From: an uncultured Mycoplasmatota bacterium
GTDB taxonomy: Bacteria; Bacillota_I; Bacilli_A; RF39; UBA660
NCBI GenBank assembly: GCA_947570175.1
Contig: CANOTJ010000011.1
Location: 1-34,274, forward strand
Direction: 5' to 3'
Length of the DNA: 34,274 nt
The notes beneath the pieces are model-generated. The model did not search any database. It was not told where the DNA came from and saw only the letters and a program-made list of their open reading frames with translations. A program made the position numbers and the translations under genes. Within the stretch, counting starts at the first letter, position 1, and every line of letters begins with the position of its first letter. Positions 2,612-5,847 of this stretch are shown piece after piece.

Positions 2612-2620
2612 TCTCTTTTT
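2595..2620. terminator. Bidirectional terminator between ezrA and ibrB-like gene
   Basis: AAAAAGAG (2595-2602) pairs with CTCTTTTT (2613-2620). The hairpin spans the ezrA stop codon and touches the end of the convergent minus-strand gene, with T runs usable in both directions. Confidence 0.65.
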
Positions 2621-3140
2621 AGTTTTCTTTGTAATACTTACTCTCAAATTCTTCCCAGGATTTACTAAACTCATGATTTTGAAAAGCTTCTTTTAAACCA
2701 GTCACTTGTTTTAAACGAATTACTTCATCCATTTCCATTCCCAATTCTTTACAAATTCTTTTTTCATTCCAACCTAATTCTGTTAGCTCAGCTACAATTT
2801 TACTGATGTCTTTAATCTGATGAGTTCCTCTAGCTCTATTATGTCGAATAGTAGAAGCCATTCTATTTTGAATTCCTTTCTTGATGACAACGATTGGGAT
2901 TTCTTTTAAATGAAAAAACTCTTTCGCACAACGATATCGGTGGAAACCATCTACTATAATATATATATCTTGCTTTTTATCATGATAAGCTACAATTGGT
3001 TGTGTATATCCATCTTTTTCGATAGAATGTTTTAGTAATAATAACTCTGGTTTTGCTATCTTGTTTGGATTGTAATCATTCGCAACCACCTTATAAATAG
3101 GAACCATTTGAACGTTTAATACAGGAAATTCAATTTTCAT
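2619..3140 (-). CDS. ParB-like nuclease-fold protein, IbrB-like
   Basis: A 173-aa protein with an N-terminal ParB/Srx-type domain. It includes the DGYTQPIVAY segment, where the fold positions its substrate, and VDGFHRYRCAKEF, which corresponds to the ParB box GERR region but reads GFHR. A C-terminal helix-turn-helix-like part (about residues 110-150) includes ISKIVAELTELGWNEKRICKELG. Solo ParB-domain proteins of this size paired with a PAPS-reductase-like protein are known as IbrB (with IbrA), described as regulators of prophage-encoded eib genes in E. coli. The start overlaps the end of the upstream GNAT-like gene by 11 bp, indicating translational coupling. It is not the chromosome-partitioning ParB: it is too short, no parA is near, and the context is wrong. 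Whether it binds DNA or acts as a CTPase or ATPase is not visible. Confidence 0.8.
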   Translation of the reverse strand: MKIEFPVLNVQMVPIYKVVANDYNPNKIAKPELLLLKHSIEKDGYTQPIVAYHDKKQDIYIIVDGFHRYRCAKEFFHLKEIPIVVIKKGIQNRMASTIRHNRARGTHQIKDISKIVAELTELGWNEKRICKELGMEMDEVIRLKQVTGLKEAFQNHEFSKSWEEFESKYYKEN

Positions 3141-3546
3141 GATTAAACTCCCATAGCATACATGAGTAGCTACCTTTAGATCCTATTTTTTGAAAACCTA
3201 ATTGTTTTAATATCTTAAGTTCATCTTGATGACAGGACAATAATTTAATATTCCCTGCTTTGTAAAGATGAAACATATGTTGAATTATATTTTTTAAATG
3301 CTCCATATTATTATATTTTTCAACCAAATAAATATCCGAAAAAGTAGTGCAATGATTTCCGATTTTAATACCACAAAAACCAACTAATTCCTTTTTTAAA
3401 AAAAATAGATACCAAGACTTATCTCTGTCATTAATTAGATATGGTAATTTTTTTCGATAAATCCTTTCTGAAAAGAACCTTCCCATAATGGAGTAGAATT
3501 CTGCTTTGTTATAATTTCCAATAAATTCTTTTACTTCATACATCAT
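3130..3546 (-). CDS. GNAT-like acetyltransferase, middle gene of ibrAB-like module
   Basis: A 138-aa protein resembling small GNAT-fold proteins. ELVGFCGIKI looks like strand beta 3-4, DIYLVEKYNN beta 4-5, and the C-terminal part ending ILKQLGFQKIGSKGSYSCM is typical of GNAT proteins. The acetyl-CoA pyrophosphate loop (R/Q-x-x-G-x-G/A) is not evident after the DIYLVEKYNN strand, so catalytic competence is doubtful. It lies 13 bp after the PAPS-reductase-like gene and overlaps the ParB-like gene by 11 bp, so all three are one operon. Two ATGs open the frame (3546 and 3543) behind a GAGGTGAAAT ribosome binding site. Its partner or substrate is unknown. Confidence 0.65.
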   Translation of the reverse strand: MMYEVKEFIGNYNKAEFYSIMGRFFSERIYRKKLPYLINDRDKSWYLFFLKKELVGFCGIKIGNHCTTFSDIYLVEKYNNMEHLKNIIQHMFHLYKAGNIKLLSCHQDELKILKQLGFQKIGSKGSYSCMLWEFNHEN

Positions 3547-3559
3547 ATTTCACCTCTAT

Positions 3560-4804
3560 TTATGTCATGTTTTTATATTTCCCTTGCAGTTCTAATAGTT
3601 TTTTTGTATCCTTTTTGTTTTGACAAAAACTAAGCCTTTTCATATAAAAATCATTATGCTCTAATGCCCGAGCAATTCTTCTCCAACTTGCTATTTTTTT
3701 TGCATTCTCTAATCTTTTATCTTCTTCATCATTTATTTCAGAAACAGGAATTCCCTTTTTTCTCTCATACCAATCAAAAAAAGCTTTAATTTTATAGTAA
3801 TAGTGATCCCGAAGTTCTGGAACATATAAACCCAAACTCTCTAGTAGAAAAACTGCATATTCTTGCCAAGTCATAGAATCAGGTTTTTCTGTCTTAATCA
3901 CCCCTAAAACACTAGTGCGACAATAAATATTACCAAAGTTTACTCCATGAACACGATTTAATACTTTTTCCCAAGTTTCATACTCTAAAGATTTAAATTG
4001 ATCAAGCCCTTTTTTTTGGTCATCCCCATATGGTTGGCATAGGCGTTGTTCATAAATTGGGACACCATTTTTATACATTTGCTCATAAATGGAATTAAAC
4101 TTTAAATTTAAGTTAGAAACAGCAGTCCAAATATCTGAAGTTTTCCAATCATAAATTGGGAAACAACTATAGGTATTGGTTTTTTTGATTCCAATTTTTA
4201 TTCTAGTGGTCCAGCTTTTATTCTGAAATGTTTCTTTCTTTTTATTAATTAGCGTTCGAAAACGGTTCAAACTTTCATCACTTCGAATAGCAACACAACA
4301 TGCAATACTGCCCTTTTTAGTTTTACTAAACCAATCTGCAAAGTAATCAATAAAATCTTCGAATTCCATTCCTTTCTGAAACCATGTCCATTCTTTAGGC
4401 ATGTTTTTTTCTTGAATTACCCATTTATTTTTTGGCATCTCGCGGACCCATTTATTTTTTTCGTTTGTATCCCAACAAATCCATTTAGATTGAATGACGG
4501 AAACAGCATTACGTAGTGATAAAGGAAGCGCTATCCAATACCAATGATCTAATACATCTTCCACCTCTGTTATTAATTCCTCAACATGATTGATAGTTGC
4601 TTTATACTGTGCTTCAAAATCTATATATAATACACTAAACTTCACATTCATTTCTCTTGCTACTTTTGCTGCTAACTGCAACATAACACTACTATCTTTT
4701 CCACCACTAATAGAAAAATAATAATCATCAAAATTTTCAAAAATATAATACAATCGTTCCAAGGTAGCGGTTAATACATCTTTTTCTGTAAATACTTTTG
4801 GCAT
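3560..4804 (-). CDS. PAPS-reductase-like PP-loop ATPase, IbrA-like
   Basis: A 414-aa protein of the phosphoadenosine phosphosulfate reductase / N-type ATP pyrophosphatase superfamily. The PP-loop SGGKDS is at residues 33-38, followed by a Rossmann-like half (YIDFEAQY). Further conserved blocks are CCVAIRSDESLNR, SCFPIYDWKTSDIW and RLCQPYGDDQKKGL. This extended architecture matches IbrA rather than assimilatory CysH, and no sulfate assimilation genes are near. DndC, from DNA phosphorothioation, is a more distant relative in the same superfamily. It is first in a three-gene minus-strand unit with the GNAT-like and ParB-like genes. An extended -10 lies at 4862-4870 and the leader contains a perfect palindrome. 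The family is clear; the biochemical role is not established. Confidence 0.82.
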   Translation of the reverse strand: MPKVFTEKDVLTATLERLYYIFENFDDYYFSISGGKDSSVMLQLAAKVAREMNVKFSVLYIDFEAQYKATINHVEELITEVEDVLDHWYWIALPLSLRNAVSVIQSKWICWDTNEKNKWVREMPKNKWVIQEKNMPKEWTWFQKGMEFEDFIDYFADWFSKTKKGSIACCVAIRSDESLNRFRTLINKKKETFQNKSWTTRIKIGIKKTNTYSCFPIYDWKTSDIWTAVSNLNLKFNSIYEQMYKNGVPIYEQRLCQPYGDDQKKGLDQFKSLEYETWEKVLNRVHGVNFGNIYCRTSVLGVIKTEKPDSMTWQEYAVFLLESLGLYVPELRDHYYYKIKAFFDWYERKKGIPVSEINDEEDKRLENAKKIASWRRIARALEHNDFYMKRLSFCQNKKDTKKLLELQGKYKNMT

Positions 4805-4861: not shown

Positions 4862-4870
4862 ATTATAACA
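4862..4870 (-). promoter_or_regulatory. Extended -10 promoter of ibrA-like operon
   Basis: On the minus strand this reads TG-T-TATAAT. The leader to the start codon at 4804 would be about 50 nt, longer than elsewhere in the window, and holds the palindrome at 4830-4844. Confidence 0.65.
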
Positions 4871-4938
4871 TGTATTTTAATAAATTTCCAAATTTTAGAT
4901 ATAATAATAAGTAAACACTTTTCATATTTAAAAATTTC

Positions 4939-4947: not shown

Positions 4948-4977
4948 TTATATATTAAGATAAGGGTAGGTGTGATA

Positions 4978-5847
4978 ATGAATAATAACGATCAAAATAA
5001 ATTTTCACAAACAGATGATTTTGAAATCATCGATCTTCCAATGGATCAAGGAGTACAACAAAATACAAATGGTAATAGTCAAGGAGAAGGAATTACCTCT
5101 TTTGATAATGGAAATCAGCAGAATTTTCCACCTAGCTATACAGAAATGCCAATAGGAAATTCTTCTTTTCCATCTCAGGATGTGAATCATGCAACTTTGG
5201 AAAATTCTTTTCCTACTTCACAAGTAGAGATGACTCCTCCTAATCAGGAGTCACAATCTAAAGTGTATATTCCAAAAAAAGATGTTTCAACAGATGAAAA
5301 ACCAGTCAAAGAGAAACTTGATAAAAGTACAAAAGAAATGATTACAATGGGAGTCATTGTTGCTATTACAATCATACTACTACCAGTTTTATATAATTTA
5401 ACAACTGGTAAATATCATGTAATAGATAAGATTAAGGGATTGTTTAATAAGCATGAAGCACAACAAACTGAGAATACAGATTCTACGGAAGAAACAGAAC
5501 CTGTAAAAGTGGATGTTGAGAAAAGTGAAGAGACTGAAGAAACAGACTCCTTCACATTTGATTTTTCAGAATATGATAATCAAGTTGTAAATACAGAGGC
5601 TATTAAAAATTTATTGATAGATTATCAAAATAATTTAACTGTTCTAGATTCTGCTATTCAAAATAATTTCCAAGTTATCACAATTACGATTGCAAAAGAT
5701 ATGAGGAATGTACAAAGTACGATTACGGATTCACAAACCACCATTCAAAATTTTATTACTCAATATTTATCTAAAGAGTACAATTTTGTAACTACAGTAG
5801 TTGATAATAATGATGGAACGTTTACTATTCAAGCAAAACAACAATAA
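4978..5847 (+). CDS. Single-pass membrane protein with Asn/Gln-rich N-terminus
   Basis: A 289-aa protein of unknown function. Residues 1 to about 100 are low-complexity and rich in Asn, Gln, Ser and Pro. A Lys-rich stretch precedes one transmembrane segment at about 118-138 (MGVIVAITIILLPVLYNL). After it comes an acidic Glu/Thr linker and a C-terminal domain of about 95 residues beginning near FTFDFSEYDNQ. By the positive-inside rule the N-terminus is cytoplasmic and the C-terminal domain is outside. I chose the ATG at 4978 over an in-frame GTG at 4972 because AGGTG (4968-4972) is then well spaced. It has its own promoter and a terminator at 5918-5954. No known domain is recognised. Confidence 0.75.
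   Translation: MNNNDQNKFSQTDDFEIIDLPMDQGVQQNTNGNSQGEGITSFDNGNQQNFPPSYTEMPIGNSSFPSQDVNHATLENSFPTSQVEMTPPNQESQSKVYIPKKDVSTDEKPVKEKLDKSTKEMITMGVIVAITIILLPVLYNLTTGKYHVIDKIKGLFNKHEAQQTENTDSTEETEPVKVDVEKSEETEETDSFTFDFSEYDNQVVNTEAIKNLLIDYQNNLTVLDSAIQNNFQVITITIAKDMRNVQSTITDSQTTIQNFITQYLSKEYNFVTTVVDNNDGTFTIQAKQQ

Follow-up and report, generated by a model that had tools for sequence, protein, structure and literature searches.

Three adjoining minus-strand genes in the window (the whole 34,274-nucleotide stretch of DNA that was analysed) raise the question of what a PAPS-reductase-like PP-loop protein, a GNAT-like protein and a ParB-domain protein might do together in a bacterial chromosome. The initial annotation described them as one operon encoding an IbrA/GNAT-like/IbrB module, and this held for position, strand and protein type: all three open reading frames are present and encode a PAPS_reduct/DUF3440 protein, a GNAT-fold protein and a ParB_N protein, respectively. 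The operon is tight, with a 13-nt gap between ibrA and gnat and an 11-nt overlap between gnat and ibrB. A promoter scan returned a possible operon promoter, such sites being no more frequent in the region than expected by chance.

3560-4804, minus strand: ibrA, 414 aa; PP-loop ATP pyrophosphatase of the PAPS-reductase group with C-terminal DUF3440
3130-3546, minus strand: gnat, 138 aa; GNAT-fold middle protein
2619-3140, minus strand: ibrB, 173 aa; ParB N-terminal domain and a region aligning with the Noc HTH, without the ParB C-terminal domain
4862-4891, minus strand: possible operon promoter, TTGGAA-18-TATAAT with extended -10 (promoter scan)
4691-4708, minus strand: IbrA PP-loop SGGKDS, residues 33-38
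4262-4288, minus strand: IbrA motif IRSDESLNR, residues 173-181
3298-3318, minus strand: site of the acetyl-CoA signature [RQ]xxG in the middle protein, degenerate KYNNMEH, residues 77-83 (alignment of copies)
2937-2951, minus strand: IbrB DGFHR box, residues 64-68
2826-2846, minus strand: IbrB RHNRARG motif, residues 99-105

Chromosomal setting and inheritance of the trio

The surroundings had been called a chromosomal housekeeping setting, which is correct but incomplete, since ezrA (ending at 2611) and thiI (12908) bound a stretch of variable content in which the trio is found. Three relatives have no gene between ezrA and thiI, and other relatives carry other genes there; in the window the interval contains the trio, scpAB, a tRNA-Leu gene and a gene for an AraC-type regulator. 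A clean insertion between ezrA and thiI was considered and rejected, because the 10.3-kb window interval also carries scpAB; the stretch is a rearranged variable interval. The divergent neighbour of the trio (4972-5847) gave no Pfam match, and by eye its product is Q/N-rich at the N-terminus and has a single likely membrane-spanning segment.

Among 193 genomes of the window's family, a close IbrA was found in eight. The specific GNAT (> 200 bits) occurred in precisely those eight, the next GNAT match in the 193 genomes scoring 32 bits, and so did a close IbrB, one copy of which is interrupted by a contig end. The trio is split in none of the 193 genomes and its order is identical in all close relatives examined, making it patchy yet indivisible and upholding the proposal that the three genes form a complete unit. 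One genome (G104) has a distant IbrA-IbrB pair without the GNAT. The trio occupies several unrelated chromosomal places and is flanked, depending on the genus, by Spo0A and VTC, by uvrC, by an ABC transporter and a deaminase, or by sugar-nucleotide genes.

In a quick tree of IbrA with several long branches, the ten chromosomal copies formed a single clade (99), nested in a clade (96) with three phage or prophage copies (L058, L059 and L185) and a copy from a Paenibacillus larvae plasmid. The same trio order was found on the P. larvae plasmid and at a locus from the window's class (L048), in both cases with ibrA immediately preceded by a gene for an SNF2-family helicase, and an SNF2 gene likewise precedes ibrA in 7 of 12 viral IbrA-GNAT-IbrB loci. 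None was present among the annotated flanking genes of the chromosomal copies in the window's family. The best explanation is that the window trio is a copy of a phage or plasmid cassette of the form (SNF2 helicase)-IbrA-GNAT-IbrB that is now fixed in the chromosome and passed on vertically; a host can evidently keep such a cassette without the phage. Directly upstream of the cassette SNF2 gene, two loci encode phrog_27058 proteins of about 130-150 aa and unknown function (L048:10649-11041 and L043:5410-5868).

In the sampled chromosomal contexts the trio showed no association with a defence island. An anti-phage or superinfection-exclusion module would suit both the patchy distribution over several chromosomal sites and the SNF2 helicase upstream in the mobile versions. 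It is nevertheless very unlikely, given that no nuclease or other effector is encoded, that PADLOC returned no defence-system match for the trio, and that no defence genes were found among the annotated flanking genes of the sampled chromosomal contexts.

Features of the three proteins

Both domains of IbrA exceed their cut-offs (PAPS_reduct, PF01507, 2.4e-14; DUF3440, PF11922, 1.7e-25). Across 119 aligned IbrA sequences, S33, G35, K36, D37 and S38 of the PP-loop and R174, E177, S178 and R181 of the RxxESxxR motif are 100% conserved. The same alignment contains no universal cysteine, the top cysteine column reaching at most 83%, and no ECGLH, the C-terminal cysteine motif of CysH. The closest folds are those of APS reductase, CysD, PAPS reductase and FAD synthase. 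Because CysD and FAD synthase transfer adenylyl groups without a catalytic cysteine, the simplest reading of IbrA is that it may carry out adenylation without sulfur transfer. A search of the open-licence literature found no paper giving a biochemical function for DUF3440.

An ordinary sulfate-assimilation enzyme (CysH or CysD) would share the fold and the PP-loop of IbrA, but this reading can practically be dismissed and was rejected. The curated models score far under their cut-offs (CysH 26 of 154 bits, CysD 44 of 195 bits), ECGLH is missing, and the partners of ibrA are ParB and GNAT genes instead of cys genes. The proposed kinship with DndC was not supported. The combination of a PAPS-reductase-group enzyme with a ParB-superfamily protein, as in DndC with DndB, would be in keeping with DNA phosphorothioation of the Dnd/Ssp type. 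However, in DndC three cysteines carry an Fe-S cluster, accompanied by a Cys dyad (PMC10853773), and IbrA has no universal cysteine to match these; PADLOC moreover found no DndC, its sole match to IbrA being a weak one to BrxP (1.9e-7); DndC is therefore excluded as the family of IbrA. A desulfurase, DndD/SspC and DndE are not adjacent either, and phosphorothioation is highly improbable. A broader likeness does exist, in that DndB/DndC and the deazaguanine system DpdA/DpdB, like IbrAB, join a ParB-superfamily protein to a nucleotide-chemistry enzyme (PMC10853773, PMC12839542), whereas the TGT, desulfurase, ABC ATPase and restriction partners of these systems are absent from IbrAB.

Assignment of the middle protein to the GNAT fold is firm, because the scores of its relatives, profile matches to PDB entries and the fold model agree. 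The window protein itself falls under the gathering score of Acetyltransf_1 (0.0027), while proteins in the same slot of the plasmid, phages and a genome of the same class match GNAT families at up to 9e-12. A profile of 17 same-slot proteins matched 47 PDB GNAT chains (7.8e-7), and the best PDB folds retrieved by Foldseek with an AlphaFold2 model of the window protein (pLDDT 94.6) are GNATs (E down to 8e-7, prob 1.00). The protein had been called degenerate, aptly so for the cofactor loop: [RQ]xxG is missing in the window protein, and among 11 chromosomal copies a single one has it, as QxxG, whereas 10 of 12 aligned phage, plasmid or same-class copies retain it, mostly as RxxG. Pairwise dN/dS values of 0.08-0.35 among relatives indicate purifying selection on gnat, compared with 0.06-0.11 for ibrA and 0.04-0.12 for ibrB. 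The gene gnat is thus kept, although it evolves faster than ibrA and ibrB, and with its signature lost the protein has probably ceased to be an acetyltransferase. The GNAT fold is also that of Mom of phage Mu, a DNA-modifying enzyme from a phage DNA-modification context, which is not known to have IbrA or IbrB partners.

IbrB matches ParB_N (PF02195, 8e-11) and aligns with Noc across the ParB domain and HTH, but scores below the cut-off of the ParB partition model (34.5 against 58.45 bits), and the GERR box and full ParB-type architecture were not found. Its DGFHR box resembles IDGVHRY of SbnI, not GERR of ParB and Noc. The NCBIfam models gave weak matches to the serine kinases SerK and SbnI, members of the ParB/Srx superfamily, with which IbrB has the DGxHR(Y) box in common; about 75 residues align (E 0.14), while the HTH-like segment and the RHNRARG motif are IbrB's own. 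In the latter, R99, H100, N101, A103, R104 and G105 are invariant in 15 sequences and R102 is nearly so.

Phage IbrAB and its exchangeable third partner

A viral scan with the window IbrA as the sole query gave no match, and an alignment query was required. The 160 viral loci examined are the best 80 per scan, not a prevalence estimate, and are biased towards the window's relatives with some duplicates included; viral relatives number at least in the hundreds. The statement that IbrAB are known only from prophage activation in E. coli is consequently out of date, the pair being common in phages. Phage homologues of IbrA are annotated as PAPS reductase, and PHROGs classes them as auxiliary metabolic or takeover genes.

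Beside or between ibrA and ibrB in the 160 loci, the neighbouring gene belongs to a few families, namely GNAT, an ectoine-synthase cupin and a family here termed X1. For 153 IbrA genes, the gene between ibrA and ibrB encodes a GNAT in 12 cases, the cupin in 20 and X1 in 19. The cupin is a genuine match to PF06339 (ectoine synthase, 1e-32 to 1e-44). X1 is about 130 aa long, gave no Pfam match in three members and no PHROG match in 20, and never occurs in one neighbourhood with the SNF2 gene around these 153 IbrA genes. The content of the slot switches at least 28 times on the IbrA tree, and single open reading frames encode cupin-IbrB fusions in 28 loci and IbrB-X1 fusions in 11. Because the partners are exchanged in one slot and fused to one and the same protein, it is very likely that they act together with IbrB.

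Cultured phages contain the same arrangement. Among 50,697 records, five cupin matches were found, of which four adjoin PAPS reductase and ParB genes; around the fifth, no IbrA or IbrB was present within the 5.6 kb examined. Gp103-gp104 of Mycobacterium phage Gaia and the corresponding genes of Pseudoalteromonas phage XCL1123 encode IbrA, then the third component and IbrB, in a tight cluster like that of the window. The third component is in both an EctC-like cupin, which in Gaia forms a cupin-ParB fusion (gp104, L258:5001-5900), whereas the window has a GNAT instead. A tblastn search of the cultured phages with the window GNAT, which is too divergent, gave no match. The open-licence literature yielded no relevant paper that connects ectoine synthase with ParB and PAPS reductase in phages; the wider modularity of IbrAB in phages is apparently undescribed so far, and the GNAT-bearing, domesticated form is a new variant of IbrA/IbrB.

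The nature of the exchanged partners could point to a small-molecule pathway, in which an amino-acid- or nucleotide-like metabolite would be made or modified, be it for host takeover or as auxiliary metabolism, and the last step would fall to the GNAT or cupin. GNAT and EctC-like cupin, which swap in one slot, are both enzyme types related to ectoine synthesis, and the DGxHR box of IbrB is akin to that of free-serine kinases. In E. coli K-12, where IbrA and IbrB correspond to YbdN and YbdM, ybdNM is repressed by CitR, and its derepression upon loss of CitR is accompanied by a rise of cys regulon genes (PMC9068703), which hints at a connection with sulfur or nucleotides without proving a causal one. 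Against this, IbrB has kept an HTH-like segment, and no recognisable biosynthetic pathway gene recurs beside the phage cassettes, which makes such a pathway quite unlikely.

A candidate modifying complex and its closest rival

The reading we favour, tentatively, is that the trio is a domesticated phage-encoded, ATP-dependent complex whose target would be DNA, a nucleotide or a substrate associated with DNA, modified by amine or acyl instead of sulfur chemistry. Acylation of amines is GNAT chemistry, and ectoine synthase cyclises an acetylated diamine, so amine/acyl chemistry would fit both types of partner. IbrA, IbrB and the third subunit would probably form one complex, in which IbrA uses ATP at its PP-loop to adenylate the substrate with release of pyrophosphate. 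IbrB, with its ParB/sulfiredoxin fold and HTH-like segment, would take the complex to DNA and may itself use a nucleotide, while the third subunit (the GNAT, or the cupin or X1 in other phages) would supply or complete the attached group. The phage might benefit through genome protection or early takeover, and in the window lineage the signature-less GNAT has probably turned into an adaptor subunit. The unsplit trio in the 193 genomes, its phage and plasmid relatives with the same gene order, the invariant catalytic residues of IbrA without a universal cysteine, the DGxHR box and HTH-like segment of IbrB, the IbrB fusions, the genuine ectoine-synthase match of the cupin and the purifying selection on gnat are consistent with such a complex. 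Conversely, an unsystematic reading of the phage neighbourhoods showed general early replication and recombination genes and no nucleotide-modification pathway, and the chromosomal copies have no restriction partner close by.

The nearest competing reading is a transcriptional co-activator complex, in which DNA-binding IbrB, IbrA as an ATP switch and the third protein as a ligand sensor would activate target genes. The E. coli pair has the same core as the window, with a DUF3440 PAPS-reductase-group protein adjoining a ParB-domain protein (38% identity for IbrA and 51% for IbrB between the plasmid pair and the window proteins). The E. coli copies examined carry no GNAT in between, and the window trio belongs to a different, phage- and plasmid-linked clade. 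IbrA/B are labelled as co-activators of prophage gene expression (PMC4490671). IbrAB are said to turn on the prophage eib genes of E. coli; the published E. coli phenotype, as reported at second hand, is transcriptional and counts against a modifying complex. The alignment of IbrB with Noc would also fit a regulator, as would its weak match SbnI, to which NCBIfam gives a double role as transcriptional regulator and as O-phospho-L-serine synthase. The chromosomal GNATs without a cofactor motif, and a possibly sensing cupin combined with an HTH, would likewise be compatible with a sensor-regulator design. On the other hand, IbrA has kept its catalytic residues unchanged across deep divergence, RxxG is retained in most phage and plasmid GNATs, and the cupin matches ectoine synthase in full, unlike a generic sensor cupin. 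A co-activator is for these reasons regarded as somewhat doubtful.

If the favoured complex indeed modifies DNA or nucleotides, the PAPS reductase and viral ectoine-synthase annotations mislead, and three genes would suffice to put a large part of phage biology that has no name yet to the test; the partner exchange and gene fusions offer concrete constructs for expression and assay. A bolder and unlikely extension would make IbrAB the core of an undescribed, modular, phage-wide family, in which PP-loop ATP chemistry that needs no dedicated cysteine adds a group bearing an amine or acyl to a DNA base, swappable tailoring subunits (GNAT, ectoine-synthase-like cyclase, X1) complete that group, and some bacteria have domesticated the complex. 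Were this true, what is reported in viruses as cysH or ectoine synthase would often belong to an IbrAB machine.

Several loci deserve mention in their own right. An IbrAB pair of a Streptomyces plasmid adjoins type I-E CRISPR cas genes (L034:937-4875). Another phage ectoine-synthase-like cupin of the ibrA/ibrB-adjacent or IbrB-fused kind lies at L142:2285-2668, and osmoprotection may not be the role of viral genes annotated as ectoine synthase. Finally, the X1 proteins at L070:1334-1705 and L095:3896-4999, linked or fused to IbrB, have the conserved core WP.SCEHNLTN...NR.AWLGQAACC.
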